64,000 nt of DNA from Acorus gramineus (Eukaryota; Streptophyta; Magnoliopsida; Acorales; Acoraceae). The position numbers and the translations under genes were made by a program. Shown here piece after piece: positions 14,031 through 48,300 of the stretch (positions within the stretch are counted from its first letter, which is position 1; each line of letters begins with the position of its first letter). Where the stretch lies: the NCBI GenBank assembly GCA_030737835.1, contig JAUJYN010000013.1, positions 988,806 through 1,052,805 on the forward strand, read 5' to 3'. The notes below the pieces were generated by a model, which saw nothing but the letters and a program-made list of their open reading frames with translations, was not told the DNA's origin and made no database searches.

Positions 14031-14165
14031 AATCTGTTTGTATCGTGTAGGGTTTGAAAGAAGCTCTCAATCAGTGGAACGGAACTTTACATGAAGCTCA
14101 AGAGGAGTCTCAACTGTGCGAGTGTCGGATATAGCAGCACGATCAAGAATGTCTGCTGTGTACTT

Positions 14166-14640
14166 CTATTGTGAGAGAAGAATCCCCCGCTTATTCTGAG
14201 CAATCTCAAGTCCAAGGAAGTAGCAAAGAATACCAAGATCCTTCATCTGAAATTGACTACTGAGATGTTGCTTCACAATAGTAATACCAGCTGAATCATC
14301 ACCCGTTATGATCATATCATCTACGTACAAAAGTAGAATCACCTCGCCCCTTGAGGACGATCGCACAAATAAAGAGTGGTCCTGATAACTCTCAACAAAA
14401 CTGGCCGCCACAATAACACTGCGAAAGCGTTCAAACCACGCACGGGGTGCCTGTTTAAACCATAAATAGCACGTCGAAGACGACAGACACGCTGAGGAGT
14501 ACGAAGACTAGGAGGTGGCTGCATGTAGACAACTTTCGATAAATCCCCGTTAAGGATTCTTCACATCCATCTGAAAGAGAGGTCAATGAAGAGTGGCTGC
14601 AACGGCAAGAAGAGTACGAACAGTGGTCGTTTGAGCAACA
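14166..14640 (-). pseudogene. Copia 1 reverse transcriptase C-terminal fragment
   Basis: The minus strand reads LLLYVDDMIITGDD, the RT active-site box of Ty1/copia elements, followed by the MKDLG(I)L.YFLGLE motif typical of the thumb region (14166-14411). A second frame at 14339-14524 continues upstream with RRAIYGLN-like text. Frameshifts separate these pieces. Faint VPVAQTTTVRTLL-like text lies near 14580-14640. Upstream RT, integrase, protease and gag are absent. Confidence 0.8.
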
Positions 14641-15214
14641 GGGACGAATGTCTCCTAATAATCAAAACGGGGGTGTTAGATTGAGACAAAAAAATACATT
14701 GATGTGTAGAGGATGAAAAGTACAGCAAAATGAGTACCAAGACTGTAATATTCGGAGTCCGAATGAGCCCTCGAAGAAATAAACAAACATCAAAACAGAT
14801 CCGAGCGAGTTGGCCAAGTTGAACCTCTGAGTCGGCTTGACGCGTGATTCACGCGATTTGATGCCGCAATCTCATGTATGATGGGATTCTCATAATCTTA
14901 CGATGGATTGTTTTTTTTTTTAATCATCAAACACTATCAAATCGGTGTTTCAACATGTCTCGTCTCCAACGACTTCAACACGGCACGGTTCGGCTCAACG
15001 GCTTCGGGACAGGCGACAACGGACTCTATGGGTGCGACGGACGGCAACGCTCAGAAACGGCTCGTAGGGACAACGGTGCGTGATCGACGACACGTCGGGG
15101 ACGACAACACGAATAACGGTGCGACGAAGACAACGACATAACAAACGTCGAATCCCAAAGATGGAGATCCGAAAAGAAAAAAGTATTTGAGATCTCAAAG
15201 GGGCTCTTATACCA

Positions 15215-15355
15215 TGTTAGATTCAGAGAAACAAATAATAATGAAACATAATTTTATTAGAGAGGGACTAAAGTCCTTTATATGCAAGATTGAATACACG
15301 TGTAACACAACAATACATGTGTAATACAATAATACAAGACATATGTAATCTAACA
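15215..15355 (-). repeat. 5' LTR of copia 1
   Basis: 141 bp, TGTTAGATTCAG to ATCTAACA on the plus strand. It abuts the primer-binding site (plus-strand GCTCTTATACCA, 15203-15214). It carries an extra ~19-bp tandem duplication (ACAA(T)ACATGTGTAA type) relative to the 3' LTR. Confidence 0.9.
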
Positions 15356-15357
15356 CC

Positions 15358-15365
15358 AATTATTA
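15358..15365. other. Left target duplication of the TIR element
   Basis: AATTATTA here and at 21359-21366 lie directly outside the GGGGG/CCCCC ends of the 15366-21358 element. Eight matching bases (nine if the bordering C is counted) fit a Mutator-like or hAT insertion. Confidence 0.7.
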
Positions 15366-15723
15366 GGGGGCGGTTAAATAAACCTCAAGATATTCAACCC
15401 ACCCCATTTTTTTGTCCCACCCCATCAAATTTTTTTATTTTGCTAACCCACCCCCTCATATATACATTATTATATACTTGACAATCCCACCCCAACCATT
15501 TTTGAAATCTCTCTCTCTCTCTCTCTCTCTTCTCCCCATCCTCTTCATCTCCCACCCGAGAACATCTTCGCTAAAATCTTCGTCGCCTTCCACGTTTATA
15601 TCGGCGTCAATGTCAGATTTGAGCCTCTTCTGCGTCCACCCCCTTCCGAGCCAACATTAGAGGACACGCCAACGACGGAGGCAATGAAGACCTTCGCATG
15701 CCTCTATTGCTCACGGTGGTTCT

Positions 15724-15838
15724 TGTTAGAATATGAAAAGAATGAATCAAATTGTATTATTAGGGTTTATAGCCAATACTTATAGTACAAAAGGGAAACA
15801 AGGAAAAGACTAATCTACCCTTAACCCTAGCATATATA
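15724..15838 (-). repeat. 3' LTR of copia 2 (end-truncated)
   Basis: Matches the 5' LTR almost base for base from TGTTAGAATATG through CTAGCATATATAC, then passes directly into RNase H coding sequence, so the inner end (ATTTAACA) is lost. Confidence 0.85.
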
Positions 15839-15839
15839 C

Positions 15840-18018
15840 TTATAGCAGATGCCATAGCACGATATTCGGCCTCAGCACTCGAACGAGAAACAATGTCTTG
15901 TTTCTTGGCCTTCCAAGATATAAGAGAGTCCCCAAGAAAGACACATATACCAGTTGTGGATTTTCGATCTGTGACATCTCCTGCCCAATCAGCATCAGTA
16001 TAAGCGCGAAGTTCAAGAGTAGAAGAAGACGGTAACAGCAGAGCACGAGATATAGTGCCACGTAGATAGCGTATAATCCGAAGAACTGCGGCATAATGAA
16101 CAGTACGAGGGGCAGCGACAAACTGACTGACAATATGCACAGCATAGGCAATGTCAGGACGAGTGACAGTGAGATAGACGAGGCTTCCAACAAGCTGTCT
16201 ATAACGAGTAACATCAGAGAGTGGTTCTCCATCGTCAGGCCGGAGCTTAGCATGAAGCTCAATAGGAGTGGGAGAAATGCGATCATCAGTTAGACAGGCA
16301 CGGTCGATCAAGTCAGCAGTATACTTGCGTTGTGAGAGAAGATAACCACGCGGAGCAGAAGCAACTTCCAAGCCTAGAAAATAACGAAGTTTGCCAAGAT
16401 CTTTCATCTCAAATTGACGCTGAAGATGTTGCTTGACCGACTGTATATGAGACGAATCATCGCCGGTGATGATCATGTCATCAACATAAAGCAGCAGGAT
16501 AGTACGATGAGGACCAGAGGTGTGAACAAATAAAGCTGGATCAGAGGAACTCGAAACAAACCCAGCAGCACAGATAGCATCAGTGAATCGAGCGAACCAA
16601 GCACGAGGAGCCTGCTTGAGACCATAGAGAGCGCGGTGAAGATGGCATACATGACCAGATGAATGAGGAAGACCCGGAGGAGGAGTCATATAAACCTCCT
16701 CTGATAAATCACCATGAAGAAAAGCGTTCTTGACATCAAGCTGATAAATGGGCCATTGACGAACAGAAGCAACAGAAATCAAAGTACGAACAGTTGTCAT
16801 CTTTGCTACAGGAGCAAATGTCTCATCATAATCAATACCATGCTGCTGAGTGAAACCACGGGCAACCAAGCGAGCCTTGTGACGCTCAATCGAACCATCA
16901 GAGTTGGTCTTGATCTTATAAACCCACTTACAGCTGATAGGAGTCTTCCCTGGAGGAAGTGGTACAATTTTCCACGTATGAGTGCGTTGTAATGCACTAA
17001 GCTCCTCTGCCATAGCACCTTCCCATTCTGGAATGCCGACAGCCTCACGATATGATTGGGGCTCCCAGTGAGTGGAAACAGCTGAAAGAAAACACTGAAA
17101 ACTAGGAGAAAAAGAATCAGAGGCAACCAAGCTGAGTCGTTGAGGAGGTCGACGAGCGCGAGGCGGATTGCGACGAGGAGCAACTGGTGCGGAAGCAGAA
17201 TCGTCTTCTGGCGAAGCAGCATCAGGAACAGGTGTAGGAGTAGACAGAACCGTCCCACGTGAATCATCCGAAGACGGCAAGGGTGAAGATGGGACTGACG
17301 AGGAAGAGTGGAGAGGTACAGACGGAGTAGATGACTGAGGAGCAAAAGATGAGGATGAGAAATCAGGAATGGAAAAGTCCAAAAATGTGACTTCCTCAAC
17401 CGTGGATGGGGGAAGAGGAACAGGAGGCGAGCGAAGAGCGTAGTATGGATGACTCTCAAAGAATGTGACATGACAAGATGTCCGAAGACGACGAGCAACA
17501 GGATCATAGCATCGATATCCTTTGATCTCATTACTATACCCAAGAAAAACACACATAGTGGAACGAGGAGACAATTTGGTACGCTCAAGAGGAGGAAGTA
17601 GGACAAAACACGTGCATCCAAAAACACGAAGACGAGAATAATCAGGAGGACTATGATAAAGACGCTGAAAGGGGGAGATGCCAGCAGTGATAGACGAAGG
17701 AGTGCGATTGATGAGATACACTTGTAAGAACAGCCTCACCCCAAAACTGAACAGGAACAGAAGCAGAGAGGAGTAAGGACCGGGTCGTTTCGAGGATATG
17801 ACGGTGTTTGCGCTCAGCAACCCCGTTCTGCTGATGAGCATAAGGAGTGGAAAGCTGCGGTAGAGTGCCTTGGGAGGATAAAAAATCACGAAAAGCACGA
17901 GAACAATATTCCCCCCACAATCAGAGCGAAACACCTTGATGCGTTTGGAAAACTGAGTTTCAACCATTGTAGCAAAAGATTTATAGATGGGTAACAACTC
18001 AGAACGACTATGCATCAA
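15840..18018 (-). pseudogene. Copia 2 integrase C-terminus, reverse transcriptase and partial RNase H
   Basis: The minus-strand frame includes integrase text ([16 protein letters not shown], and after two frame changes [14 protein letters not shown]). It continues with the GYSNEIKGYRCYDP region, a Ser/Pro-rich linker, then RT with KWVYKIKTNSDGSIERHKAR, YQLDVKNAFLHGDL and the active-site box YVDDMIITGDD, and RNase H with YTDADWAGD and AEAEYRAMASA. There the coding sequence runs straight into the LTR, so the last catalytic region (normally Y/C-D-N) is absent. Codons 17,725-17,915 are out of frame. Confidence 0.88.
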
Positions 18019-18713
18019 ATATATCCAGGTAAAGCGAGAAAATCATCAATAAAAATAACATAATAACGGTTACCCCCTTTAGAAGGAATAGGGGAGGGAC
18101 CCCAAACATCAGAGTGAACTAGATCAAAAGGAGAAGCAGAAATGTGTTTACTAGTAGGAAATGGAAGAGCCAAGTGTTTTGCCAACTTGCAGCCCACACA
18201 TGGTTGAAGCTCAGTTTTTGAAAAGGAACCTAAAACACCGGTACTTATTAGATAACGAAGTCTTGGAGGAGAGAGATGGCCAAGACGGCGGTGCCATACA
18301 TCAAAGGAGGAAGGAGAAGAAGAAATCAAGCGAGCAGAAGCTGCAGAAGACGAAGGAATATGAAGATGATCCATGTAGTAGAGCCCACCGCGTCTAGAGC
18401 CTGTCCCAATCTGCTTCCCCGTACGACGATCCTGTACAGAACAAGTAGAAGAATCAAAAGTAATGAGACAATCATGATCCGCAATTTTACCAACAGAAAG
18501 CAAATTTAGTGATAGACCAGGAACATGAAAAACATCAGGAAGTTGAAATCGATGAGAAGGATCAGCAAGAGAACCAGAACTCGACACAGACAGAGGAGTC
18601 CCATCTGCCGTACGAATAACAGGAGTGGGAAACATGCGAGTAGGACAACGAATAAAGGATGCCTGAGAAGTCATATGATGGGAAGCCCCAGAGTCAAGAA
18701 TCCATGAGGAGGT
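18015..18713 (-). pseudogene. Copia 2 protease and integrase N-terminus
   Basis: The minus strand carries the aspartic protease box ILDSGASHHM around 18670-18705, a GAG-pre-integrase domain with WHRRLGH (first zinc ligands) and C-X2-C (CVGCKLAKH), and the start of the integrase core (DLVHSDVWGPSP, then YYVIFIDDF). A one-base loss near 18030 ends this frame. Upstream, a frame slip near 18715 separates it from gag, although copia normally has one continuous gag-pol frame. Confidence 0.85.
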
Positions 18714-19846
18714 AGGTTACCTGTCGCCGCAGTAGAAGCAGAAAAGGGAGCAGATGAGTCACTACCAGTCACTGAGCGAAGCATATCTTGAAGCTGTTGT
18801 TGTTGAAGGTGGAGCTGCGCAAGACTCTCAGTGATCTGAGAGGAAGAATATGCCGGCGGATCAGTAAGAAAATCAGAAGCAACGGCAGCTGCAGGTCGAG
18901 GCTGATAGCGACGTGGAGGAACTGTAGGAGGTGCCCGAGGTGCTTGCGCCCGAGGCGCTAGTGCACGTGATGCTGCAGGATCTAGCGGACGAGGTGCTGG
19001 AGGAAGCGCTCCAGGAGCTGAAGTGCGAGGTACATAAACAAGAGGAGCACCATCACGAGCACGCTTACGACATTCAGATTGCACGTGTCCAAATTTATGG
19101 CAATAATAGCAAGTGACCCGAGTGTAGCGATTGTCTTGACGATGTGCAACATTGACAGAACTGTGATCAACGATAGGCGGAGTGACAACAGTGCGAAGAC
19201 GCGTCTCCTCAGCAACTAACTCAAAAAGAACCGTATCAAGAGACGGTTTGGGAGAACGATGAAGAATCTGTGCACGAATAGCCTCGAACTCAGGACGAAG
19301 ACGCATCAAGAATTGGTACAATCGTTGACGATTACGGTACTCACGATAGCGTGTCAGAAAAATACCCTCCATCTGAGGATCCATAGGTGCGAGTTGATCC
19401 CAGTAATCAGATAAAAGAGAATAAAAATCACGAATAGACAGCTCCCCTTGATAAGAAGTAGAAATGGCCTGATGTAGATAGAATTCCTGAGCACCATCGG
19501 TCTGCGTATAGAAATTCTTCAGAAAGTCCCAATATTCCTTGGCTGTAATAAACGGCTTCAAATGTTTACGGATATTTGGAATAACCGAAGAAGCAATATA
19601 AGCTTTCACCCGAGAATCGGCCTCCTTCCATGTCAACAAAGCCTTAGTATATGCCTCAGCTCTGGCCTTGATGGTTGTCTCATCAGAACCCGGTGGAGAT
19701 AGTTCAAGTACAGGAGCTAGATTAGTGCCAGTAACATGACCCAATAGGCGACGATAATCAAGCTGAAGTTCAAGACTAATAGACCAGACATCATAATTGT
19801 TACCATCAAACTTAACATCGATGATCTGAGTGTTATCCGTAGCCAT
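18671..19846 (-). pseudogene. Copia 2 gag
   Basis: I take the ATG at 19846 (MATDNTQ), in the usual position, with YDVWSISLELQL shortly after, as in plant copia gag. The middle matches the UBN2/retrotran_gag region (FYTQTDGAQEFYLHQAISTSYQGEL split over helices). A CCHC zinc knuckle CYYCHKFGHVQSEC lies at about residue 260, followed by an Ala/Pro-rich stretch. Gag would form the cytoplasmic particle and bind RNA. The frame is open up to the slip near 18715. Confidence 0.85.
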
Positions 19847-29723: not shown

Positions 29724-29732
29724 CTCCAGAAT
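29724..29732. other. Left 9-bp target duplication of the MULE
   Basis: CTCCAGAAT here and at 40313-40321 match perfectly and directly border the terminal inverted repeats. Nine bases is the Mutator-superfamily signature. Confidence 0.95.
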
Positions 29733-30588
29733 GGGATCGGAACCTCTGTTTCGAAATAACAGAGGACCTCTGTTTCGACCAACCGGTAGGCGACGTGTGG
29801 CAAGTTTATCACGTGCTCTCACGTGATGGATTCTTAACAGAGATCCTGGGAAATACTCCGTCTCCTTCCGTTTGTTTCGACCACGCGTCTCTCCTCCCTC
29901 AGAACAAACCAAAAGCCCTAACCACCGCCCCTCTTTCGAAACCCATAACCACCGCCTTCCGACGCCGTCGCCCTCGCCACCACCGCCTTCCGACCGCCCC
30001 TCTTTCCAAACAGAGGTTCCGGCAAGCAATCACAGACCACCCCTCTTTCGAAACCCATAACCACCGCCTTCCGACGCCGTCGCCCTCGCCACCACCGCCT
30101 TCCGACCGCCCCTCTTTCCAAACAGAGGTTCCGGCAAGCAATCACAGACCGCCCCTCTTTCGAAACCCATAACCACCGCCTTCCGACGCCGTCGCCCTCG
30201 CCACCACCGCCTTCCGACCGCCCCTCTTTCCAAACAGAGGTTCCGGCAAGCAATCACAGACCGCCCCTCTTTCGAAACCCATAACCACCGCCTTCCGACG
30301 CCGTCGCCCTCGCCACCACCGCCTTCCGACCGCCCCTCGTCGAAGCCCCAGTTCATCTTCCTCGGTGGGTTTTGGAGGTCTTCGATCTTCTTTATCAGCT
30401 CTTCCGTGGGTTATATTGGGAGGTACATCTCTGCTTGGAGCCCCACTTGTATTTTTTTTTTTTTTTTTTTTTTTCTGTTGTGGGTTTTCAATTCTTAGTA
30501 ATAAATTGAGATTGAATGCCTACCCTTCACTTGAAAAAAGAAAAAGAAAAAAATTGTGATGCTGATGATGACATGAATTGAATGGGTC
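29733..30588 (+). repeat. Left MULE terminal inverted repeat (856 bp)
   Basis: Matches the right TIR (39577-40312) in reverse orientation from the outer tip to ACATGAATTGAATGGGTC. It differs mainly in the number of 112-bp internal repeat units and in homopolymer lengths (T-run at 30452-30474). It contains a CACGTG-like segment (about 29809-29823) and a candidate leader exon ending in a GT donor at 30421. Confidence 0.92.
29931..30345 (+). repeat. 112-bp tandem repeat in left TIR
   Basis: CTCTTTCGAAACCCATAACC starts at 29931, 30043, 30155 and 30267, exactly 112 bp apart; the fourth unit is partial. The right TIR has one unit fewer. The long open frames in both directions across this array are repeat artefacts. 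Confidence 0.93.
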
Positions 30589-30854
30589 TTATTCTCTTCT
30601 CTTGTGGTCCTTTATATAATTTCTTTTCTTTTGCTTCTTGGGTTTATTGTAATGCTGTTTGTAGTAGCTTTCTTTTTCTGTTTGCCTTTAGTTATCATTT
30701 TCCATTGAAATCTTTAGTGGGTATGTAATTTTTGATAGTTTGGTTCATACGGTTTTTTATGTATGCTCATTTGGATTCATTATTTGAGTTGGTTTGAATC
30801 ATGTACTAATTTTTGGAATGATATGAGATGAATGATATGTTTTATTGTAGGTTC

Positions 30855-31271
30855 ATGGCAAAATTTAAGTATTACGCAGTTGCAATAGGCAGGACCCCAG
30901 GCGTGTATACGAATTGGCCTGAATGCAAAGCACAAATACATGAGTTTCGAGAGCCAATATTCAGGGGCTTTCAAAATCTTGAGGAGGCCAATGAATTTGT
31001 TACCAAGCATGCCGTCCACTCCACTACTGACCATTCCACTCCATTGCTGACCTCTTCAAAGAGAGGAAGTTCAAGCCCAGCACCTACATGCATGATTTCT
31101 CAAACTGATCCACTGCAAAGAGAGGTAGTACAAGCTCAACATCCACATGAATGCCCACCTACATCAGTTGTTTTGCCTATCACTCATATCATACTTGCCA
31201 TGTTCGGTTGTACTATTTTCTTGTTGGTCCTGATTCTCACAATTCTCATCCTCATTTTTTATCACATGTAA
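30855..31271 (+). CDS. MULE accessory gene: RNase H1-type hybrid-binding domain with C-terminal membrane anchor
   Basis: ATG 30855 follows an AG acceptor (30848-30849). A TIR leader exon could splice in from a GT donor at 30421. The 138-residue product has an N-terminal hybrid-binding domain (residues 4-49; the RNase H1 N-terminal/Cauli_VI fold, PF01693). It carries YYAV, GRTPGVY, W-x2-C (NWPECKAQ), F-x2-F and LEEANEFV at the conserved spacing. In RNase H1 this fold binds RNA:DNA hybrids or dsRNA. A Ser/Thr/Pro-rich linker follows (52-105). A ~28-residue hydrophobic segment at the very end (IILAMFGC...LILIF, then YHM) suggests a tail-anchored membrane protein. There is no RNase H catalytic domain. 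The gene takes the position that mudrB has in MuDR. The frame is fully open, unlike the transposase. Role unknown; binding of nucleic-acid intermediates is inference. Confidence 0.75.
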   Translation: MAKFKYYAVAIGRTPGVYTNWPECKAQIHEFREPIFRGFQNLEEANEFVTKHAVHSTTDHSTPLLTSSKRGSSSPAPTCMISQTDPLQREVVQAQHPHECPPTSVVLPITHIILAMFGCTIFLLVLILTILILIFYHM

Positions 31272-33252
31272 TTTTGGTTGGTTTTGATGCCTTGGAGTTG
31301 TAATTTTGATTTGGGACAATAGGTTATGGTTGTGGACATCTGTGTTTGAAGGAATGTGTATGGTTATGAAAGTTTGTATTTGAATTAGTATTTGAATGAA
31401 TGTTTCATTAGTATTCACACGGTCAATGCACAAAGTATTTGAATGAATGAATGATTTGGTTGGTGAATGATGATGGAAAATCTTGATATTGCATAAAAAA
31501 AACATGAGGCTTGTGATTTAATGTCTGTTCCCATGTAAGTCTTTCCTTCATACTGTTTTATTGATGGAAAATCTCTATACTGTTTTATAAGGATTAGATG
31601 TTGGGGAAACACAGTTTTCAGGGTGGTTGGATTAGGTGACGTTTTATTGATGGAATTGTGGCTTATACTTTATACAGCAGATGCATTGACTCAGGTTATT
31701 GATGTATGTTTCTTTGGGAATAGCCATGGAAAAGATATGGATTTTATGGTAGAAGATGTTATTTTTTATTTCAGGGCAACTTGGATTAGGAGTAATTTTT
31801 TTTTTGAGTCATTTTAATGTAGGCAAGCTCAGAATGCTAACTGCTATGTCCAAGTGATTCAAAACTAATTTCCATCAGAATTATAACACAAAATAGAATT
31901 TCAGAATCAATTAATCCTTGCCTTGAAGGATTTGGATACCCCCGATAGCAAACAAAAAAGAAAAAAGAGACTTGGCATTAGATCAGTCATTATTGCATTA
32001 TCCACTGGGAAAAATAATCTATTGAGCACTCAGCAGAATTGCTTCTGAAAATCTTCACTGACACAAAGCACTTTGTGCCATCTCTGGATTTTTTGTAAAG
32101 ACATTACTCGATTAGATAGATAAATAACAACTGCAAAGACATTGGCATTAAAGCTTGTAGGAAACACATTTGATACCTTCATCTTCCAACCCACAGCAAA
32201 TTGAGCAACAGTTTAGGAACAATCAATCAACCCACTATAGATCAATATCCATTGCCATATTTTCTACAAGTCCATAAACCTATTTATCTTCTGTCACTAC
32301 ACAAATTCAGCTAATTATCTCTCCTCCCCCCCCCCCCAAACCAGCCACCCTGTCTGCTAATCACCACAACCATTCGTAATGGAACCATCTGTCTTGCAAC
32401 ATGCCCAGACCACATTATTATATTCTCTGTCAAGTTATCCCCAATTTGAGGGTTGTCTGCTACTTCAGATGCAATGTTTTGAGTCATCCTATTTATCCAT
32501 GCCAACATCGATTAATCCATATCCATCTAATTCAGTCATTTACCATACATTCCATATTGCATCTTGATTACACAACAATCTACCAATCCCACATTGCTAG
32601 ATTTATCACTGAAATTGCAGAGCATATCCTCTTCAACCACTAAGCCTAGATACCACTGAAAACTCACCATTATGCTTTTTTCGTCACATTGGATAAGAAA
32701 TTTCCTTTTCAATAATTGTGAAGGATCATACAGATCCCATATAATTACACTGATGATAATTCATCTGAATGTTCATGTAACAGGCTCCAAGTTAATGTGG
32801 CATCTGGCAAGCATTCCCTCATTAGCAGAAGTACAAAAGTTTAGCAAATACATGAGAAATATTTAGGAGCAGTCGTATGATTTTCACTGTAGGAAAATTT
32901 GAAATCAATTACTGTGTTATTAACGTAGAATAGTAAAAATATTTAGAAAAGTAAAAATATTCATTACAATAGGAAAAAAAAAACATGAAAATCATCCAGC
33001 ATACAACAGGGGTACACTCCATTATAGTGCATCAATGCTGTACAAAGCATAATTGCACTCAATAACCAAAACAAAATTTTCCAAATCAAACTTGACATCA
33101 GCTTTCCACCAGTAACTACAGCAGTTGGCCAACAATGTGACATCTGCGAAACCACGAAATCAAGCCTCCCGAAAACAATGTGACAGCACTACGAGATGGA
33201 ATGAAACTACCGCAACTATAATGGCATGGAATGTAGAGAAACCCCTGCAGGT
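31272..33252. other. Non-coding interior of the MULE
   Basis: AT-rich sequence following the accessory gene, probably including its 3' UTR. No recognisable domains; short open frames only. A C-run lies at 32325-32336. Confidence 0.45.
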
Positions 33253-33520
33253 GACAATGTTATATATGTGTCACTTTTAACCTGCTGGTAACCGTTGGAG
33301 CGTTCTGGCAGTTTTTCGTTTTTTTTCGGTTTTCGATCGGTACCGCTAATTTTTGGACTGTTAGCTATCGTCCTGTGCTAGAGGACTCCGATTGGAAATC
33401 TAACTGTATATTTGGTGTCCTGGTGCCATTTTAGGCCTCTCACGAAAATTTCGTAGAATTCCGGTAACGTTTCTGAAATTTCGCAGTTTCAGGGCGTGTC
33501 TGGGTTTTTAAGTCGCTCGC

Positions 33521-33528
33521 TATATATA
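33521..33528 (+). promoter_or_regulatory. Candidate TATA box of the solo LTR
   Basis: TATATATA inside the LTR, followed at about 30-60 bp by a CT-rich stretch typical of a plant leader. Probable U3/R promoter; transcription would run toward the MULE transposase 3' end. Confidence 0.4.
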
Positions 33529-34969
33529 GGTGGGATCTAATTTCGAAATCACTATTCATCATCCCTACCAATTTCATTTTCTCTCTCCCCTCTCTCTTTT
33601 TCTCACTTTTGAGCCCCCTAGAGCCCTCAAAGCTTAAAACCCAAAGCATAGGAAGTGTAGATCGGGTCCCGATCTACACTCCGGTGCTTTCAAATCTGAA
33701 TTCCGGCGAGTTTTGCCCCTCCGTCCGCCCTCTCTTCTCCTCTGTTTTGGCTTATTTCGGAGGTGGGAGTAGATCCGGGCGTTGGAAGCCCTTTGGGAGA
33801 GGTTTCGGTGCGCGGAGAGCAACCGGACTTCCCTTCCTCCCCTTGGTAAGCCTCTTTTCCCCTCTTTTCTTGTGTAGATGTATGTTAGGAGGGTGGATTT
33901 GAGGTTGGGAGGCGGTCGGCGGCGGTGGGTGGCCGTCGGAGGGCTGTGGGGGGTGGTCGAAGGCCTTGGGGTGGCCGGTGGGTGGTGGTTGAGGTGCTCG
34001 GGCAGGGTGGCTGGTGGTAGCAGCACAGGCAGCAGCACAGGCAGCAGGCGCAGCAGCTGGCAGGGGCGGGCGCGCGGGTGGAGCTGGGCGCTGGCAGGCG
34101 CAGTCGGGCGCGCAGTCACGCGCAGGAGCGTGCGCGCGGGTGCGCGGGTTCGCGCGGAGCGGGCGCGCGGGTGCTGGCGCGAGCGGGGGTGTGCGCGGGA
34201 GTGCTCGCGGGCGCGCGCGGGCTGGGCACCTGGGCACTGTTCCTGGGTGCTGGGCAGGGGGCCTGGGCATGCACCTGGGCGCGGTGCTGGGGACCAGTGC
34301 GCGCGGTGCTGGGGACCAGTGCGCGCGCGTGCTGGGGCGTGCGTGCAGTGCGCGCAGGGGCGCGCTGGGCTGGACGCGCGGTGCGCGCGGGTGCGCGCGA
34401 GCGTGCGCATGCGTACGGCAGTGCGTCGGGGCGCGCGGGCTGAGGCGCGGCGGCGCATCCGAGGGCGGGTGGCCGTGCGGGTGGTAGCCGGAGTGCTCGG
34501 GCTAGCGTGCGTGCGGGTCGTATGCACGTTTGCCCGAGTGTTGGGTATTTATTTGGGTAGTTTGGTATATTTTGGAGTATTTTGAAGTGTTTATGTATTG
34601 TTCTCACCATATTGAATGCCTGTCTTGCAGATCTAGACGGACGGTCGCGCGACGACCCAGATACTTGTGAGTGGGACAATCCAACCCAGTAGAGAGGCGT
34701 CATACGCACTTGGGCGTATACCGACTTCTCCTGGGGCACCGCGGATTATATTAACCTGTAATAATATGTATTGCATGTGAGCATGATTTTAAATACCGAA
34801 TGCATGCTACCCTAGGATTTTATGTTAGGGACTTGCACCCATTGGATAGGTGTGAGAGCCATGCACCATGCCCCCTGTTTTCATGATAGGAAACCTCGGC
34901 CTATGCATGCGTCCTACTAGTTTATTTATTAAATTAAATGCTAGTGTATGTTAATTCGCATGCCTTAGA

Positions 34970-35290
34970 TAATATTATAGGGAGGAGCCTTGCGAGGTCA
35001 ACATTGAGACCCGTGTTAGGGTACTCCGTGTTCCTTGTTTGGTTGTCGGGATGTCCTGTATCGGGACCTCATGCTGCCCTCCCCCAAGGTTTCTAGTCCC
35101 AATAATATTATATGTAATGTTGTATGACTGTTATGAATATTAGCATATTTAGTGAATATTATAGGGGAGGGGCCTTGCGAGGACAGCGGTGAGACCCGGG
35201 CTAGGGTACTCCGTATTTCTTGTTTGGTTGTCGGGGTATCCTATATCGGGAACTCACGCCGCCCTCCCAAGTTTCTTTCCCCCAATGATA
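34970..35290 (+). repeat. Tandem duplication inside the 3.06-kb LTR
   Basis: A ~180-bp unit (attataggg(g)agg(a/g)gccttgcgagg ... tcgggatgtcctgtatcggga ... cccaat(a/g)atatt) occurs twice, near 34972 and 35155. The LTR at 61716 lacks it, which explains part of the length difference. Confidence 0.8.
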
Positions 35291-36318
35291 TTCCGCCCTT
35301 GCTAATTATTGTGCATGTTCCCCGCATCTTGGTTATGCGCCCTGGAGGAACTCTGAAGAGTTCGTGACATTAGAGTTGTAGAGATGTGTTGTCGGCGGAT
35401 CCGAGTGGATCATATGCGTATGGATGGGCTGTTCTGTCCCCCTCGTTGGATCCGGTAGAGACTGCCCCAGCGTTAGAAAGGTCGTCCCTTCCAAGGGTTC
35501 CCATCAGTAGGCGCCTCCTGATTTGGTTTCGGACTGGGCCGAAGTTGTGGGTGAAAACCAAGCGGCCTACGGAGTGGAGGAGAGACTATCGGTGGACCAA
35601 GGGTGACCAACAGCCTAGTCAGTCCCAAAATCCTATGTCACCTTTGGAAAGGTGAGGGTGAGGGTGTAGTGGGTTGTCGATGAGCGACCCGCTGGTTTTG
35701 TTATGGATGATTGTCAGTCCCAATATCCTGAGTCTCCTGTTGAGGGGTAAGGGTGAGGGTATGATCTGGGTTATGGAAATAGTGGTTTAAGATGGATTAT
35801 TGATTATGTTGTTCCTGCCCTTTGGAGGCGGGATGAATAGCTGGATTAATATGTTGTGGTCAATATTGTCTGTGATGCATGGGTTCACCCCTCGCATATG
35901 TTTTTCCCCAGTTGCCACTGAGCCTGAGCTGGAGCCGGAGCAGCAGTTGGAGCTTTCCGAGGGATTCCTTCAGTAGCGGAGCAGCGCCACGTTCCGCGAG
36001 TGCCAGAGGCTATCAGCATCCCGTCTTGGCTGTATGTATTGTATTTCCGTGCTGAGCACGTGTTGTATATATTCAGTTGTATTGGTGTATATTGGCTCTC
36101 ACAGGACATATGATTGAGTATCGAGTCTGTAGTATGTTTATTTACAGATTCAGTCTTTTGCTTCCGCATTTGGTGTATATATCATGTCAGCCCCTTTGTT
36201 GCCTGTGTGTCATTCTAGTTGTTGTGTATGATATATTATTGACCTCCCGTGTAGATTCTGATATTATATATACACTTGCCGCGTCCCGGGGACGGCCGCC
36301 CTGGGGCGTGACAGACAA

Positions 36319-36718
36319 TGTGGTCAAATTCCGATAAGAAAGTAAATAATATACCATGCACCAACCAGAAGCATGCACACATTTGTGTAAGCAAAATGTA
36401 TCACCTGTTATTCCACTCAACTTTCTGTGTGTTGCTTAGCTTAGCATACCCCTTGATATACAGTGAGCTAAACAATCCTGTCACCTCATAGATCTTCACC
36501 GAAATAACAAAAAAATGAATATGTCTTTTTAACGTTTTAGACTGAAAAGTTGAAGCTAAAGAGGAATCTATGAAATTGAACTTAATTGTACATGCGTGCA
36601 TAAGTAGCAAAGACTTCAAAACTTCTTTACTCTGAAGTAGGAAGAAGCAAATGAAGTTATGCAAACAAAAACAAAAATTCTTCACCCTACAATCAGAATT
36701 CCACAATACATAATATAA
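36319..36718. other. Non-coding interior of the MULE
   Basis: AT-rich; a 28-bp direct duplication (atcagaattccacaatacat type) lies at about 36690-36745. It may include the 3' UTR of the transposase. Confidence 0.4.
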
Positions 36719-37148
36719 TCAGAATTCCACAATACATAATATAATCGCAAAATGCAGAACACACACACTATAATGTTTGAGGACAACTCCACTCCACTGA
36801 ATATGGAAATTGATGCAACTCCAAGAGACAAAAGCAGTCCAGACAACCTTGAATTGTGTAAGACTCCAAACTCCATCTAGTACCTGTAATATAAATTTAT
36901 CTATGTTAATTTTTGTGATGAACTCATTAAATGAAATCAAGTATACTAGTGTATTTTAAAAATTAACATTACACATGACAATAAAAAATCTGTGCTCCTC
37001 CTCCATTCTTCAGAAAAATTTGATGCTTCACTCATTTGAGTAGGATAAAAAAGGGATTCCTGTGCCTGCGATAGAATTGATTTAACATCATTGAAGTATA
37101 TATGAAATATAAATTCCACTCCACGACAAAAAAAAAAATGAAATGTAC

Positions 37149-39349
37149 CTGAAGCAATTGAGTCATTGAAGTCATTCCTTGACTGCTATCGTAGTTCCCA
37201 ACTATGGGGGCTCTCATTCCTTGCGCAAATGTTTGAGGGCTCTCAATCGCAATGTGGGACGCATGTTGGGACACACGTTGAGTTTGAGAGCTTTGACCTC
37301 GTGATCCCTTCTCCAACGCGCCGATCCATCTTTTTTGAGGCTTCCCTCCCACAGTCTTCTTTCCTCTTCTTTTAAAGCCTTTAGCAATCTCATTGTTCAG
37401 ATTGCTTTCCACCTCATGTTGCTCATTGTCATCTTGCAAATTTTGAGATGATGTCCGCAAATCTATCTCAACCTCCTCCATTATCTCTTTTGTGCGACGT
37501 TTAAGTAGCTCTGTTGAATGATCTGTTTCAGATGCCTTGGATGCCACTTGAATGAGACCATGACTTAATTGTTGAAATCGTCTTCCCAAATCAGAAATAG
37601 CATCAACTTGTACTGAAGAAGAACACATATCATGCACAACACCGGATTTTGCATATCTTGTCCACCTCTTCAAGATATACTGTTGTGGAAGCTCCTTAAT
37701 ATTTCTGTGATCAAGAACTTTTAGAACATGACAGCACTGGATACCCATAAATTCAAATTTTTTACAGCTACAAGTGACCATCTCATTAGATGAATTATAA
37801 AAAATGGTTCTTTCACTGCCACAATCTCTACGAACTTTGTACTCTATCATATGTCCCACCTCCCGATGAATGTAGATAGAACAATTCAAAAATTTTCCAT
37901 ACTCTGCTTGAAATAACTCAAATATCTCGGGCGTGTAAACCTTTGTGACACATGTCATCATCAAAGCATTAAATGGAATTACCGGTACTGTATTCATCAT
38001 CTTGAAATCAGCACTCAATTCACTTTCACGCCGATCATCCATAACCCTATCAAAATGCTGAAAGAAACGCAATGGATCATGCTTTGAGTTCAGGTAGCGT
38101 CTCAGAAGAGCATTGAAGCTTTCACTACGTTGTGTACTCTTCATATCCGCGCAGAATGTGTCTCTCCCATACACTAGAGCCCATTTCTCCTTCTCAACAA
38201 AAGTTTGTTGAAGCCATTTATTATCTCGAAGATTGTATTTCTCAAGCATGTTATCCCAAGCATATAGAAAATCATCCTCCGTCTCGTACCCATAAATACA
38301 AGCATAGAAGGAACTTCTGAAGCCTTCGATAGAATAAAGATGTCCAAGATGTTTTGTTGCATTTTGGGTCAAGTGCCACAGACATAGCCGATGATGAGTC
38401 TCTGGTAGGACAACTAAAATAGCTTTGGCCATCGCCGCTGATTGATCTGTTAGAATAGTCTTCGGACGTCTCCCTGACATTGCTTGAAGAAAAGTTTCAA
38501 ATAACCAAATAAATGAGTCGGCTGTCTCATCATAAAGCAATGCACCCCAAAAATAATTGTTTGTCTATGATTATTCACTCCAACGAATGGTGCAAATGGC
38601 CTCCCATGATTATTTGTGCGATAGGTCGTGTCGAAACAAATTACATCACCATAATGTGCATAATCGACAATAGACCTAGAATCGGCCCAAAACACATTAG
38701 TTATTTGTTCATCGGCATCAAGTTGCATTGAGTAAAAGAATGATGGATCTTGTTGTTGGTTGTTGAAATACTGAAAAAGAGCACCCGCAATACCATTTTC
38801 CATTCTACTTTCTCTTTTAGTGCGCAAGTAAGACTTCACATCATTTAAGACAAAACCAAGATTCCTTCTGCCTCCAACTTGTCCACTCATCAAATCCATA
38901 ACGGTTTTTGGTGCCAATCCTGACCCATCTATAATATCAACCTGAGCAGCTTGAGCCTTTTCAATTTTTCTGTGAGACCTCAAATTGTGACGCAAAGGGG
39001 TTGTTACAAGATCATGATTGTGGTTTTGTTCAAATTTAGTGACACAATAAGCACCAGAAGACTGATAAATGATAACTATATGTGCCTCACATCCTGTTCT
39101 TGTATCTGGCTGCGGGTGCAAGACTTTTCGCTTATCAACCCCTTTCATCCCTTCTTTAGAACAACAAAATTTTCGCTTTGTCACTATACCATTAGACTTC
39201 GATACGCCACTTCTTCGGATGCTAAATCCAACTGATCTTGCATATGCGTTGTAAAATTGATATGCACTCTCTTCGGAATCGAATGCCATACCAACTTCAG
39301 GCACACCATTATCATTACGTTCATCAATACACTCATTGTCACCTTCCAT
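37149..39349 (-). pseudogene. FAR1/FHY3-type MULE transposase with one frameshift
   Basis: Start ATG is taken at 39349 (MEGDNE), after an AG acceptor at 39368-39369. A FAR1 DNA-binding domain spans about residues 25-115 (FYNAYARSVGFSIRR, Cys63, Cys87, then QNHNHD zinc ligands). The MULE transposase domain (DDE type) starts with FWAD (220-223) and catalytic CFDTTYR (Asp240). After a one-base slip in a C-run at 38544-38547 it continues with LLYDETADSFIWLFE, ILTDQSAAMAKAI (second Asp) and HRLCLWHLTQNA. A SWIM zinc finger follows (CSCKKFEFMGIQCCHVLKV). The main frame ends at MTQLLQ next to a GT donor (37148). A short last exon from 36883 to 36719 is possible. It would bind the TIRs and cut and paste the element; FHY3/FAR1 regulators descend from such proteins. 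Its place inside TIRs shows this is a transposase, not a host gene. Confidence 0.9.
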
Positions 39350-39576
39350 ATTGATATCAACAATCACCTTTTAAGAAAAAGACATAATTAAAAACATAAT
39401 TATATATTGGCATGAAATTAAATAACTCATAAAAAAAATATCAGATTAGATCTAAAAGCCACAAAAATATAAAAATCAAATTACAAAAAATCTATATCAT
39501 CTACAACAAATTAAAATAACTCCACAAAAAATAATCTCTAAATACACACACACAAATATATCATACCAACTTCAGG

Positions 39577-40312
39577 ACCCATTCAATTCATGTCATCATC
39601 AGCATCACAATTTTTTTCTTTTTCTTTTTTCAAGTGAAGGGTAGGCATTCAATCTCAATTTATTACTAAGAATTGAAAACCCACAACAGAAAAAAAAAAT
39701 ATACAAGTGGGGCTCCAAGCAGAGATGTACCTCCCAATATAACCCACGGAAGAGCTGATAAAGAAGATCGAAGACCTCCAAAACCCACAGAGGAAGATGA
39801 ACTGGGGCTTCGACGAGGGGCGGTCGGAAGGCGGTGGTGGCGAGGGCGACGGCGTCGGAAGGCGGTGGTTATGGGTTTCGAAAGAGGGGCGGTCTGTGAT
39901 TGCTTGCCGGAACCTCTGTTTGGAAAGAGGGGCGGTCGGAAGGCGGTGGTGGGGAGGGCGACGGCGTCGGAAGGCGGTGGTTATGGGTTTCGAAAGAGGG
40001 GCGGTCTGTGATTGCTTGCCGGAACCTCTGTTTGGAAAGAGGGGCGGTCGGAAGGCGGTGGTGGCGAGGGGCGACGGCGTCGGAAGGCGGTGGTTATGGG
40101 TTTCGAAAGAGGGGCGGTGGTTAGGGCTTTTGGTTTGTTCTGAGGGAGGAGAGAGATGCGTGGTCGAAACAGACGGAAGGAGACGGAGTATTTCCCAGGA
40201 TCTCTGTTAAGAATCCATCACGTGAGAGACACGTGATAAACTTGCCACACGTCGCCTACCGGTTGGTCGAAACAGAGGTCCTCTGTTTGGTCGAAACAGA
40301 GGTTCCGATCCC
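39577..40312 (-). repeat. Right MULE terminal inverted repeat (736 bp)
   Basis: Inverted partner of 29733-30588. It has three 112-bp units (39820-40120) instead of four, and one small insertion (GAGGGGCGACGG near 40068). The candidate leader exon ends at a GT donor (39730-39729), the same site as in the left TIR, and would feed the transposase gene. Confidence 0.92.
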
Positions 40313-40321
40313 CTCCAGAAT
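40313..40321. other. Right 9-bp target duplication of the MULE
   Basis: CTCCAGAAT, identical to 29724-29732. Confidence 0.95.
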
Positions 40322-43518: not shown

Positions 43519-45300
43519 ATGACGCGGCGGGTCGAGCGTGAGGCGAGCGAGGAGGGTTGGAGGGTGCGGTCGAAACGGAGAGAGAGGAAGGAAGGAGCTA
43601 CGGAGGACATGGGTGGGAGAAGGACGAGCGGTGGAACAAGTCGGCCTTTGCGGAGTCAAGGAGGTCGATGCCCTAAGGGCTCTCGTTGCTTCAGATGCCT
43701 AGCCCTGGGACATTGGCATCGGGAATGCCGGGATCCCGTCATGTGCTTGCGGTGCAGGGGGACGGGGCATCGGGCGTTCGCGTGTCCTTTGGACCGTGTC
43801 CCTGGCAACCGGAGACTTACAGCCATGGCAGACAAGGCGCTGGAATTACAATTGGGGGATAGCTTTAATCCTTCGGAGGAGGAGAGATCACTACGGTGCT
43901 GCGTGGTGGCCACGGCCTCAGGGTGGTCACCCCCCTCGGAGGAGATGTCTCGCATGGTAGAACTCAAATGGGGGAAAAAGGACTGGGCAGTGGACAGGGT
44001 ATTGGGAACTGGAAGGGTCTTACTCAAAGTAACGGACCCCCGGCTTCGGGGTCGGATGGTGAGGCAGAGAACCATCCACGGAGAGGGGGGCTCGGTATAC
44101 TTAGCGGCGTGGTCCCCGGAGTTCGGGACTCGTCCTGCAGAAACGTATAGATGGAAGATGAGGCTAGTCGGCTTGCCCCTCCATTGGCAATCGCCTGGTT
44201 GTCTTAGGGAACTCATGGTCGGTTTTGGTAAAATCACCGCATTCGGACGGAGTGGAGTGGACCAGTCGGGGGCGACGTTCGTGGAGTTCTCTCTGGTGGC
44301 GGGGGTGCCCCGGCACTGGCCACGGTCCATGCGGGTAGCTCATGGACGTGAGGCTTTCCTCATTCAAATTGAAGCTCGAAGCGTGCACATGGCGTCGAAG
44401 CGAGCCTGGATAGAGGTCGTCAATGGGACCTCTAGGTCGAGCAGTTGCTCCTCATCGCAGGAGAGGGTGAGAGGCAGGGCAACACAAAGGAGAAGGACGA
44501 TCCCGAGTCACGACTCCAGGACGACTCGGCGCAAGTCACGACGAACGAGGACCAGGTCGCCGAGGAGGGACATGGTACGTTCTGACGGGACTGCCACCTC
44601 AGGGCACGCCGAGGTGTGGAACACGCAAAGCCAGCCGCGCGTCTCGGGCCCCACAATTCGATCAGAGGTCCATCGGGTGGTGTTGGACGAGTCGAGAAGA
44701 CCACCATCCCCTGACACTCAGGGCGTAAAGGGGTGTGTACAGACCCCCGCTAATAACAGGGGGTCGGGTACGCAAGTGCAGGAAACACAAGGGAGGGAAA
44801 GCACGATGGGAGGTGGGCCGGAGGGGGGTCGTAATGGGCCGGGCCTATTGGGCCAGGGAAAAAACTGGGTGTGGATAAGAAGGGACTCGTCGGGCCAAGT
44901 CGAACCAAGGCCCATCTCTTTCGGTTCGTTTGTAAATTCAAACCAGGGAAGCCCACTAATGGCTCCAAACAACTCTCGAGCAGCACTTTCCAATGGTGGT
45001 GTGGGTGCGGAAGCTCCGATTCCCGCGGAGAAGGAAGATGTTCGTCAACATATGCCCCCAGGGACGATCCTAGCTCACGAACGCGCGTTATCTTTGGGTT
45101 TGATGATCCAGGAACAGAGCAACACAAGTGGCTTCGTGAACAGTGTTAGGGGGGAGTTTGGCGCATGCGGACCGTTCGGGCAGGAGGACGACGAAGCGAG
45201 CTCACCGGGCAGGGGAGAGGGTGAGATCACAGGGGAGCAGACAACCCCTTTGCGGTTGGAAGATTCAGATCGGCATCATAGGAGGCAGGTGTCTCCATAG
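43519..45300 (+). CDS. LINE ORF1, zinc-knuckle RNA-binding protein
   Basis: 593 residues from ATG 43519 (MTRRVERE). The basic N-terminus is followed by two adjacent CCHC knuckles ([14 protein letters not shown] and [14 protein letters not shown], residues about 55-90). A globular region follows (about 130-290: [19 protein letters not shown]..., [17 protein letters not shown]), similar to the DUF4283-like domain of plant LINE ORF1. The C-terminal half is long, polar, Arg/Ser-rich and probably disordered. It would coat the LINE RNA in the cytoplasm. The frame is fully open. The stop at 45300 lies 50 bp before the ORF2 ATG. Confidence 0.88.
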
Positions 45301-45350
45301 GACAAACGTCGTTCCGGGTGTTCTACTTCAAGGAGTTACCAGTTTGTTTG

Positions 45351-48300
45351 ATGTTTAGCTGCCTAATTTGGAACATTCGGGGGCTACACGACCCGGCAAA
45401 GAGGAGGGCATTACGGGACATAGTGGCCACACACAGAATTCAGATATGTTGCATTCAAGAAACAAAGATGGAATTGGTGGAGAGTCAGACAATCACAGAG
45501 ATTGGGGCGGGGCTACTCGACGGATGGGGTTTCAAGGGAGCGAGAGGTGCAGCGGGTGGCATATTGATTTGCTGGAACTCGGCGTTATGGAGGGCGGTGG
45601 AGCAGTCGGTGGGAACCTATTCCCTGTCAGTCTTGTTGGAAGACCTACAAACAGGGGGGCGGTGGTGTTGCTCCAGCATCTATGGACCAAATGATGACGT
45701 AGATCGCGCAATACTATGGGGTGAGCTCTCGGCCATTCGATCGCGCTGGTCCGTGCCGGTGGCCTTCATGGGTGACTTTAACGTCATACGGAGGATGGAA
45801 GAAAGAAACCGGGCGGGGTATGCCACACCAGCCATGACTACATTCTCGGACTGGATCGAAGAGGAAGGTCTCATCGATATCCCGATTTCAAATCATGAAT
45901 TCACTTGGAGTAACATGCGCGAGGACCCGTCGTTGGCAAGGCTGGACCGGGTGCTCATTGACGAGGAATGGGAGGAATTGTATCCAGACTGTGGGGTCAG
46001 AGGCCTGCCCAGGGTGACTTCGGATCATGTTCCACTACTCCTCGAATCCTCCACATCCAGAAGACCCCGAGGACCCTTTCGTTTCGAATCTTGGTGGTGC
46101 GAGGTCGAAGGTGTGGAAGGACTAATCCGGCAATCTTGGGAGGCTAGCGCCAGCGGTCTAAGGGGCGCAAGGAGGGTAGCCTTCAAGCTCCGTAGACTCA
46201 AGCGGGTTCTTCGGCAATGGGGTTCGACGGTCCGAGCAGCCAGAGCAGAAAAGAAAGGCGCGTTGCTTCGGGACATCCTACGCCTAGACAGGGAGGAGGA
46301 ACAAGCAACCTTGGTAGAGGATGACCGTGTTGTTCGAAGCAACGCGAAAAGGGAGCTTGCGCTAATCCAAAAAATGGAGGAGATAGAATGGCGCCAAAAA
46401 TCAAAAGCGCTATGGTTGAAAGCGGGAGACAATGACACAAAGTTTTTCCATCAGGCAGCGAGCCAACGTCGAAGGGTAAATCATATCGCGAAAATTTAGA
46501 TTGGAGATAGTGTCTGGGAGGAACCGGAAGACATCCGGAGCAACCTCACGTCTCACTTCAAGCATTCCTTCCGCAAGCGCCGGGGATGGAAGCCGGACTG
46601 GATGGACCCTGGACTGCCGCGTCTTAGTCCCGAGCAGCTTGACATCTTGGAAGCTCCGTTCGGGGAGATTGAGATCTTTCAGGCGATCTCGAAGGCAGAA
46701 GGAGACAAAGCTCCAGGCCCCGATGGATTCAGTTTATCTTTCTTCCAAAGATACTGGTCCATAGTAAAGCATGACGTGGTGGCGATGTGTGATGAATTCT
46801 TCGCAGGCTCGCAGAGTGTGGGCTGTCTCAATGCATCAAACTTCGTTCTTATCCCAAAAAAGGAGGGAGCAACAAGGGTGGAGGACTTTAGACCGATATG
46901 CCTGGTGAATGGGGCCTATATGATCGTGGCGAAGGTCATGGCCAACAGGTTGAAATTGGTTTGCGGAGACCTCATCGAGCCATCCCAAGCGGCGTTTCTT
47001 CCGGGGCGGCTTCTCCAAGAGGGCTTCCTCACAGTACAGGAATTAGTGGCGGATCTTCAGAAAGATAAAAGGCAAGGCTTGGTATTCAAGCTAGACTTTG
47101 CGAAGGCATACGACAGTGTGGACCGGGATTTCTTACTGAAGGTGATGGAGCTGCATGGCTTCCAACCGAGATGGATCCGAATGGTGCGGCAATGTATCGA
47201 CTCGGCGCATGCATCCCTCTTGATAAACGGAGAGGTGTCGGGTTTTTTCCCTCTCAACAGGGGTCTGCGACAGGGAGACCCCCTCTCCCCGATACTTTTC
47301 GTCATCGTTGCGAACGTCTTGAGCCGGCTATGCGAGAAGGCAGCAGGGGCGGGATGGATCTCTGGTTTAGCTAGTTCGCAGGTGGGAAACAGGGTGGCGA
47401 TCCTGCAGTATGCGGACGACACAATTTTACTTAGCGAAGCAAGCGAGCGAAGCGTTCGGGGCTTTCGATTCATCCTTTTTTGCTTCGGTCTCCTATCAGG
47501 GCTCACTCTCAATCTTCGGAAGAGCACAATGCATGGAATACACATCACGACAGAGGAGGAGACTCGTTTGGCCGATTGCATGGGATGCCCACATAGTCCT
47601 TTCCCTACGAGGTACCTGGGCCTACCACTAGTAAAAGGAAGACTTACAAAGGAGCTATGGGATCCCCTTATCGACCGTTTCGAAAGGAGACTGTCGGGCT
47701 GGAAAGGCAAGATGTTGAGTTGGGGTGGGAGATTGACACTCCTTCAAGCGGTCCTGACCAATCTTCCCCTATTCTACCTGTCGGTGTTCAGGCTACCGAT
47801 TGGGGTACTCGAAAGAATCGATCGGATCCGCAGGAGATTCCTTTGGCAGGGAGGAGAGACCGACCGAAAGGCCCCCCATATGGTCGACTGGGAGTCAGTT
47901 TGCAAGCCGAAGCGAGAGGGGGGGTTGGGAGTGCTAAACTTAAGATACATGAACAAAGCCCTCATCACCAGATGGGTGTGGAGATGGCTATCGAGGGCAG
48001 CATCGATCTGGACGCACTTATTCAGGGACAGGTACGGGGGTGCGGGCTTGGGGGATCATCGATGGCCATCCCTAAACGCCAGAGCGAGCCAGATATGCAA
48101 AGGCCTATTTGCGGACCGCATGGAGGTAGTCAACGCCTTCGCATGGAAGATAGGAGACGGTAGATCAGTGCACTTCTGGATGGACCGATGGGCTGGAGAA
48201 GCGCGGCTTAGCGACCTGGTTCCGGATATTTTTAGACTAGCCGCCAAGAAGGAGGGATCCGTCTTTGAGTTCTTTCACGAGGGATCTGGGAGCTGGCAGG

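Follow-up and report, generated by a model that had tools for sequence, protein, structure and literature searches.

Why would a DNA transposon carry the nucleic acid-binding domain of RNase H1 without the nuclease? The question is raised by a short gene in a 64,000-nt stretch of the Acorus gramineus genome (C43:988806-1052805 of a 398.6 Mb assembly), here called the window. The gene lies within a MULE of 10,580 bp, at 29733-40312, which has identical 9-bp duplications, CTCCAGAAT, at its two ends. An initial annotation of the sequence had called these ends proven, and the long terminal inverted repeats (TIRs) and the perfect duplication bear this out. The outermost of the left TIR blocks listed is 82% complementary and extends into the flank. 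The parts of the element are as follows:

29724-29732, no strand: left 9-bp target-site duplication, the same as at 40313-40321
29733-30588, plus strand: left TIR, with blocks 97-100% complementary to the right arm
33258-36313, no strand: solo-LTR-like insertion (TG...CA) with a 5-bp duplication, GACAA, recognized from the sequence and from a sister copy
37032-39349, minus strand: FAR1/MULE/SWIM transposase gene, in two overlapping frames with a frameshift near 38,545
39576-40312, minus strand: right TIR, recognized from arm pairing and the duplications
40313-40321, no strand: right 9-bp target-site duplication, the same as the left

The transposase domains PF10551, PF03101 and PF04434 all scored over the cut-off, split across the two frames, and the small gene on the plus strand is convergent with the transposase gene on the minus strand. 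The solo-LTR-like insertion is missing from the sister copy L033, where the sequences matching window 33167-33260 and 36314-39709 are contiguous. Tandem GC-rich repeats of ≈112 bp occur in both TIRs (29924-30338 and 39815-40118), apparently in unequal copy number. Elsewhere in the window, ORFs inspected by eye indicated a Copia-type retrotransposon on the minus strand (13380-19846) and a LINE-like element (43519-49007).

The small gene, at 30855-31271 on the plus strand, is stop-free and encodes a protein of 138 residues in which the motifs GRTPGVY, NWPEC and EEANEFV were all found. The initial annotation had read these as marks of an RNase H1-type hybrid-binding domain (HBD), and the profile search, in which a missing match would have counted against that reading, gave strong support: PF01693, the RNase H1 N-terminal domain, matched residues 5-48 of the 138 over the full model (1-44 of 44) with an E-value of 3.6e-19 and 69.1 bits, against a cut-off of 21. 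With phmmer, the protein matched the human (3bsu, 1.7e-6) and yeast (1qhk, 3e-6) RNase H1 HBDs among PDB sequences. No Pfam match to an RNase H catalytic domain was present in the protein, again as annotated. A chance open reading frame is ruled out by the PF01693 match and the existence of 24 genomic copies. The terminal membrane segment that had been proposed corresponds to a hydrophobic C-terminus with a Kyte-Doolittle 19-residue (KD19) maximum of 3.08 from residue 117, after which only 3 residues remain. All five proteins of this type that were scored gave KD19 maxima of 2.8-3.5 with 3 to 9 residues beyond, and all five had KD19 values above 1.6 solely at the C-terminus, that is, a single hydrophobic segment. 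We consider this segment to be a predicted tail anchor. The features of the gene are:

30423-30850, plus strand: presumed 5'-UTR intron, with donor and acceptor inferred from sequence
30855-31271, plus strand: accessory gene for the 138-residue HBD/linker/tail-anchor protein, from the ORF, PF01693, the copies and the alignment
30867-30998, plus strand: RNase H1 hybrid-binding domain (residues 5-48), from PF01693 and phmmer
31041-31049, plus strand: Pro-Leu-Leu in the linker (residues 63-65), invariant in 17 of 17 aligned proteins
31176-31262, plus strand: C-terminal hydrophobic segment, predicted tail anchor (about residues 108-136), from the KD19 maximum

The presumed donor, GGGAG/GTACATC (the slash marks the junction), lies inside the left TIR, and the presumed acceptor, TTTATTGTAG/GTTCATG, adjoins the start codon. 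A longer in-frame ORF of 147 residues starts at 30828 and crosses this acceptor. Because the donor-like sequence is copied in the TIRs at both ends of the element, the TIR may provide a promoter and 5' exon for both genes.

Whether the gene belongs to the element or was picked up once by a single copy can be read from its distribution. A genome search with the HBD protein gave at least 135 matches, corresponding to 122 distinct loci among the matches listed after 13 of the 135 rows were dropped from the linkage tables as second pieces of listed genes; a PF01693 profile search gave at least 141 matches. Twenty-four loci, including the window, were ≥92% identical to the window protein, and 18 of these were open across the full 138 codons. 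A parallel search for the MULE transposase, in which 131 of 1078 candidates were scored, yielded 121 listed loci (20 of 141 rows were second pieces and were dropped from the linkage table). Twenty-two of the 24 close HBD copies were located within 20 kb of a MULE transposase, in every case (22/22) convergent with it. Seen from the transposase, an HBD match lay within 20 kb of 21 of the 24 listed loci at ≥90% identity, and of just 7 of the 53 at 80-89%; L053, a sister MULE with a transposase 87% identical, has no HBD. The 80-89% lineages thus appear to have amplified mostly without the gene. The two remaining close MULE copies are among the 47 of 122 HBD loci that were unlinked to any listed transposase.

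Nineteen MULE elements, the window and 18 fetched loci, were read closely. TIR arms were present on both sides in 18 and a transposase in 17. Eight had perfect 9-bp duplications (that of L034 is a run of C), two had one mismatch, L041 and L045 had none, and in seven the ends were unpaired. In two elements the transposase match did not cover the whole length: L044 is a deletion derivative of 3.2 kb whose duplication is perfect, and L040 retains only a C-terminal transposase fragment. In L042, the transposase (795 codons) and HBD (138 codons) frames are both open between TIRs with a perfect duplication; both frames are also open in L041. The copies are mosaic, with gene segments mostly 95-99% alike and TIRs and intergenic parts that differ or have been exchanged. 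In L036, L039, L041 and L046-L050, the genes are nearly identical and the TIRs and intergenic DNA are not, as would be expected if TIRs had been swapped within the family. A one-off Pack-MULE capture is ruled out by the co-occurrence with the transposase in 22 of 24 copies. Homologues confined to single-copy loci without linkage to MULE TIRs, one of the results that the initial annotation had named as fatal to its proposal, are not what we found: they are multicopy and linked to both TIRs and transposase. We conclude that this TIR-MULE family regularly carries the HBD gene as its second gene.

More distant relatives of the HBD protein led to a different type of transposon. L052, representing a set of loci termed group B, contains an HBD gene with a C-terminal transmembrane (TM) segment, a DDE_Tnp_4 (PF13359) transposase gene and a Myb/SANT (PF12776) gene, and on this domain content is a PIF/Harbinger element. 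In L051 (group C), the HBD-TM gene adjoins a Myb/SANT gene (PF12776) on the same strand; no transposase is seen there, the fetched stretch beginning too late to include one. A search with the group B transposase, in which 150 of 407 candidates were scored, gave 142 distinct Harbinger loci after 8 of the 150 were dropped as second pieces. Among the 122 HBD loci, 45 were within 16 kb of a listed Harbinger transposase, with 1.4 expected by chance, and 38 were within 5.4 kb. Seven links, including that of the MULE copy at C32:24132, span 10-16 kb and may be nested or accidental. The proportion of listed Harbinger transposases with an HBD match within 16 kb depended on their identity to the query: 14/17 at ≥88%, 5/27 at 66-87%, 1/20 at 44-65%, 0/52 at 35-43% and 24/26 at 32-34%.

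The 24 linked transposases in the last class constitute group C, with transposase matches at E-values of about 1e-20, and in 21 of the 24 pairs the two genes are on the same strand, 1.34-1.56 kb apart from start to start. When the group C region was used as a DNA query, 20 other dispersed copies were found among 40 candidates scored, with homology running from the HBD start to the same sharp end near L051:3626, where the sequence reads ...CCACTTCCCAAACGGGGGG/TTA. A 21-base pattern made from this end marks the end of the element adjoining the HBD gene; it occurred at 133 sites, with none in a reversed control, and no clear partner end was seen by eye among the sites listed. About 40 HBD loci of group C are ≥78% identical to L051, outnumbering the 24 close MULE copies. 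A group C Harbinger piece also lies in the window itself, at 55081-56038, 95% identical to L051 (query 1165-2128) and with the end CCCCCCGTTTGGGAAGTGGAATT.

Group D comprises L065, L028 and L064, each with an HBD gene. The Myb/SANT gene of L065 is 54% identical to that of L052, and no transposase was found in L065. At another group D locus, C5:19436806-19441513, the HBD gene (19436806, plus strand) is followed by a transposase (19439043, minus strand), 72% identical to the group B query, and a Myb gene (19441127, minus strand). L028 and L065 have the end GGCTAYGTTTGGAATGG in common, and the sequence outside it differs. The Harbinger ends read comprise one for group C, one for group D and none for group B. 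Three loci (C2:31579269, C5:8692392 and C95:214959) make up a further HBD group, with open frames of about 150 codons, PF01693 over the cut-off, 25-29% identity to the window protein and no listed transposase nearby.

HBD-linker-tail-anchor proteins therefore occur in at least three PIF/Harbinger lineages. The initial proposal of a transposon accessory gene for a tail-anchored HBD protein is supported for the MULE family, and proved too narrow in confining the design to MULEs: within this single plant genome, the gene recurs as an accessory gene of one MULE family and of three or more PIF/Harbinger lineages. We regard the identity of the gene and its linkage to transposons as close to certain.

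To compare the four groups, 17 HBD proteins were aligned; the rows for L054, L055 and L057 (group B) end a few codons early. Domain order does not differ between the four groups, and each has a hydrophobic segment at the C-terminus. Invariant columns are M1, Y7, A10, G12, R13, Y18, W21, C24, Q27, F31, G38 and F48 and, outside the HBD, P63, L64 and L65 in the linker and P108, L123 and L131 in the tail. The Pro-Leu-Leu stands out from the rest of the linker, which is not conserved; in groups A, B and D, an acidic residue is located five positions ahead of the first Leu. The Pro-Leu-Leu resembles a motif for docking or sorting. In a tree of the 17 proteins, which is unrooted and carries a long-branch warning, the MULE proteins and group D were placed opposite groups B and C with support of 96/98, and the MULE group itself had support of 72/88. 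The pairwise identity of the MULE protein was 49% to group D, 32% to group B and 29% to group C, and the acceptor context at the start codon, TGTAG/GTTCATG, is common to the MULE and group D genes. MULE and PIF/Harbinger transposases belong to separate superfamilies, so at least one of the two must have received the HBD gene, whether from the other or from an outside source. Since the MULE protein most resembles that of one Harbinger lineage, the gene was either exchanged between superfamilies or separately acquired. It has thus moved from one DNA-transposon superfamily to another or joined them on repeated occasions, and the transfer may have gone in either direction.

As to an ultimate source, the genome contains 18 RNase_H (PF00075) matches, none of them within 50 kb of a PF01693 match when the two lists were compared by eye. 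No canonical RNase H1 donor was thus seen among RNase H genes of the PF00075 type, as distinct from the RVT_3 type. A scan of IMG/VR with the HBD protein gave three pattern matches and no relatives; with the alignment, it gave 16 pattern matches and one relative, the viral contig L066, with a 38% match in the HBD.

The gene could be a passenger, taken from the host more than once and amplified with the elements, in which case any selection would reflect only the function it had in the host before capture. This was addressed by the pattern of substitutions. In the MULE family, 19 copies were compared after leaving out the 5 of 24 with indels; mean dN was 0.0080 and mean dS 0.0339, a ratio of 0.24 (P 6e-4). 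The unique changes comprised 15 synonymous, 13 non-synonymous and one stop, on 94 synonymous and 320 non-synonymous sites, and were distributed as 7 synonymous and 5 non-synonymous in the HBD, 5 and 7 plus the stop in the linker, and 3 and 1 in the tail. Mean divergence (p) was 0.014 in the coding sequence, 0.019 in the 130 nt downstream and 0.097 in the 125 nt upstream; only the nearer flank was used for the comparison, as flank distances are otherwise inflated by the mosaic TIRs. Group B (5 copies) gave a dN/dS of 0.31, with 40 synonymous and 63 non-synonymous changes (P 8.5e-5). The ratio for group C (7 copies; 6 synonymous and 11 non-synonymous changes) was 0.57, not significantly below 1 (P 0.23). 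Between the window and L026, dN was 0.167 and dS 0.401; between the window and L064 of group D, 0.345 and 1.309. L064 and L028, both of group D, differ by 6 non-synonymous changes and 1 synonymous. Selection is thus clear in two groups, the MULE family and group B, unproven in group C and not visible between the two recent group D copies. A neutral dN/dS had been named in the initial annotation as evidence against its proposal; such a result did not occur in the MULE family or group B, and in group C the ratio could not be told from neutral.

We consider the passenger explanation improbable. The copies of the MULE family and group B in which constraint was found are recent amplifications, 18 of the 24 MULE copies are fully open, position and orientation are kept in dispersed copies, and no canonical host RNase H1 donor was seen near a PF01693 match. 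It does draw some support from groups C and D, where constraint was not clear, from the absence of the gene from most listed sister elements, and from precedent: MULEs are described as frequent captors of genes (PMC9168764, PMC13317346), and a PF01693 gene has been reported as captured in a fungal Helitron (PMC4289320).

What, then, might the protein bind? RNase H1 HBDs bind RNA:DNA hybrids. Two residues of the human enzyme that touch the DNA backbone, Tyr29 and Lys60, belong to a set of four reported to be required for hybrid binding (PMC7657459). We set the human numbering on the phmmer alignment from the residues named in that account (PMC7657459). Tyr29 aligns with Y7, kept in 17/17 proteins, and Lys60 with G38, a glycine in 17/17. 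This change counts against RNase-H1-like hybrid binding by the HBD protein, which may be lost or changed; it would also allow a protein-docking role for the domain, and human RNase H1 is reported to bind the protein P32 via its HBD (PMC3750045).

Such docking is the core of another explanation, that the protein is a transposition helper and has no part in countering silencing. Like MURB, the product of the second gene of MuDR, it would aid insertion, nuclear entry or the production of transposase. It might, for instance, dock the transposase or the corresponding mRNA at the ER or nuclear envelope, with the HBD serving as a protein-protein or mRNA-binding module. The equivalent of Lys60 is lost, yet Tyr7, Trp21 and Gly12-Arg13 are kept in all 17 proteins; this pattern, the P32 precedent (PMC3750045) and the invariant Pro-Leu-Leu, as expected of a docking motif, all fit. 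So does the layout of two convergent genes adjoining the TIRs, as in MuDR, whose MURB is described as needed for insertion in maize (PMC9168764). Relatives of the HBD protein, however, accompany unrelated transposases, which makes a contact specific to one transposase unlikely, and the listed sister MULEs and Harbingers amplified without the gene. We consider a helper role the strongest of the alternatives, and still an unlikely one.

The remaining alternative is an R-loop or nuclear-envelope factor: a tail anchor in the nuclear envelope and the HBD would together tether R-loop-forming element DNA at the nuclear periphery, favouring transcription or post-excision repair. The PF01693 match to a hybrid-binding domain, the GC-rich TIRs with their tandem repeats and the short, hydrophobic tail are consistent with this. 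The glycine in place of the required lysine counts against it, and we rate it the least probable of the explanations considered.

Our preferred explanation, held with rather less than even confidence as a whole, is that the gene is a tail-anchored HBD accessory gene whose product binds element RNA at a membrane and counters silencing. The TIR would act as promoter and provide a spliced 5' leader for the gene, and the protein would be inserted post-translationally into the ER or nuclear envelope. Tail-anchored proteins expose their N-terminal domain to the cytosol or nucleoplasm, and the HBD would accordingly face one of these compartments. There it would bind element dsRNA or RNA:DNA hybrids; the long inverted repeats and the convergent genes make element dsRNA plausible. 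Held at the membrane, the protein would help the element by keeping its RNA from the membrane-associated small-RNA machinery of the plant. In Arabidopsis, miRNAs and siRNAs are reported to have distinct distributions between the ER and the cytosol, and phased siRNAs to be made on membrane-bound polysomes (PMC5207768). We put the chances that the protein acts on nucleic acid at a membrane at about even; that its action is anti-silencing in particular is a more tentative suggestion. The initial annotation had likewise proposed that the protein could bind R-loops, dsRNA or siRNA precursors, with a possible role against silencing. We nevertheless prefer an anti-silencing role to that of a transposition helper, which we place before a passenger gene and, last, an R-loop factor.

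How does the gene compare with known systems? The initial annotation describes mudrB as unrelated in sequence, we expect no sequence relation to VANC or ULP1, and we know of no tail anchor in the caulimovirus P6/TAV protein. The likeness to MuDR is one of arrangement: a TIR-MULE with two genes, mudrA and mudrB, in opposite directions, one of them the transposase (PMC9168764). Like mudrB, the HBD gene is a second gene convergent with the transposase, in all 22 linked close copies, whereas the transposase here is of the FAR1/SWIM type. The Abermu MULEs have an extra ORF, ORFR, antisense to the transposase, with a Ka/Ks of 0.39-0.56 and absent from one-ORF relatives; the comparison is by description only, and the description of ORFR given there mentions neither a ribonuclease nor a membrane (PMC9168764). 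Other accessory genes of MULEs are VANC, the anti-silencing gene of VANDAL elements, and the ULP1 domains of MULEs of the Kaonashi type (PMC13317346), ULP1 regions being patchy in grapevine MULE and CACTA families (PMC2528002). The module here differs in consisting of an HBD and a tail anchor and in being found in MULE and PIF/Harbinger elements; the closest earlier case of a module common to more than one superfamily is ULP1 in MULEs and CACTA elements.

Among proteins with PF01693, human and yeast RNase H1 share the N-terminal HBD, and the HBD protein differs from them in having no catalytic domain, a glycine for Lys60 and an added tail anchor. P6/TAV (viroplasmin, the source of the Pfam name) is likewise a use of PF01693 by a selfish element, in a larger multifunctional protein (PMC7102451). 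The gene capE of the Pleurotus Helitron HELPO1.3 is a PF01693 gene on a DNA transposon, in one long fungal copy where it is termed captured; its description makes no mention of a link to MULEs or Harbingers (PMC4289320). Searches of the open-licence PMC literature listed no tail-anchored HBD gene in MULEs or Harbingers, in agreement with the impression in the initial annotation that such a MULE gene was undescribed.

In the literature that we encountered, the accessory genes MURB, ORFR, VANC and ULP1 belong to MULEs, and ULP1 also to CACTA elements. Genes with the RNase H1 N-terminal domain (IPR011320) are reported to be over-represented in the adlay annotation (PMC7247446), and some such over-represented genes of plant annotations may be transposon genes. 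A broader proposal, which we consider doubtful at this stage, is that unrelated plant DNA transposon superfamilies trade a common tail-anchored HBD gene that would be a silencing suppressor, acting at the ER or nuclear envelope on dsRNA or hybrids; it would be a counterpart of viral suppressors and, unlike VANC, would not rely on recognition of the DNA of any one element. If true, the HBD module common to MULEs and PIF/Harbingers would be a part of general use, for counter-defence or as a helper, that selfish elements swap, and the HBD protein offers a concrete, testable candidate for studying how DNA transposons contend with RNA-based silencing at membranes.
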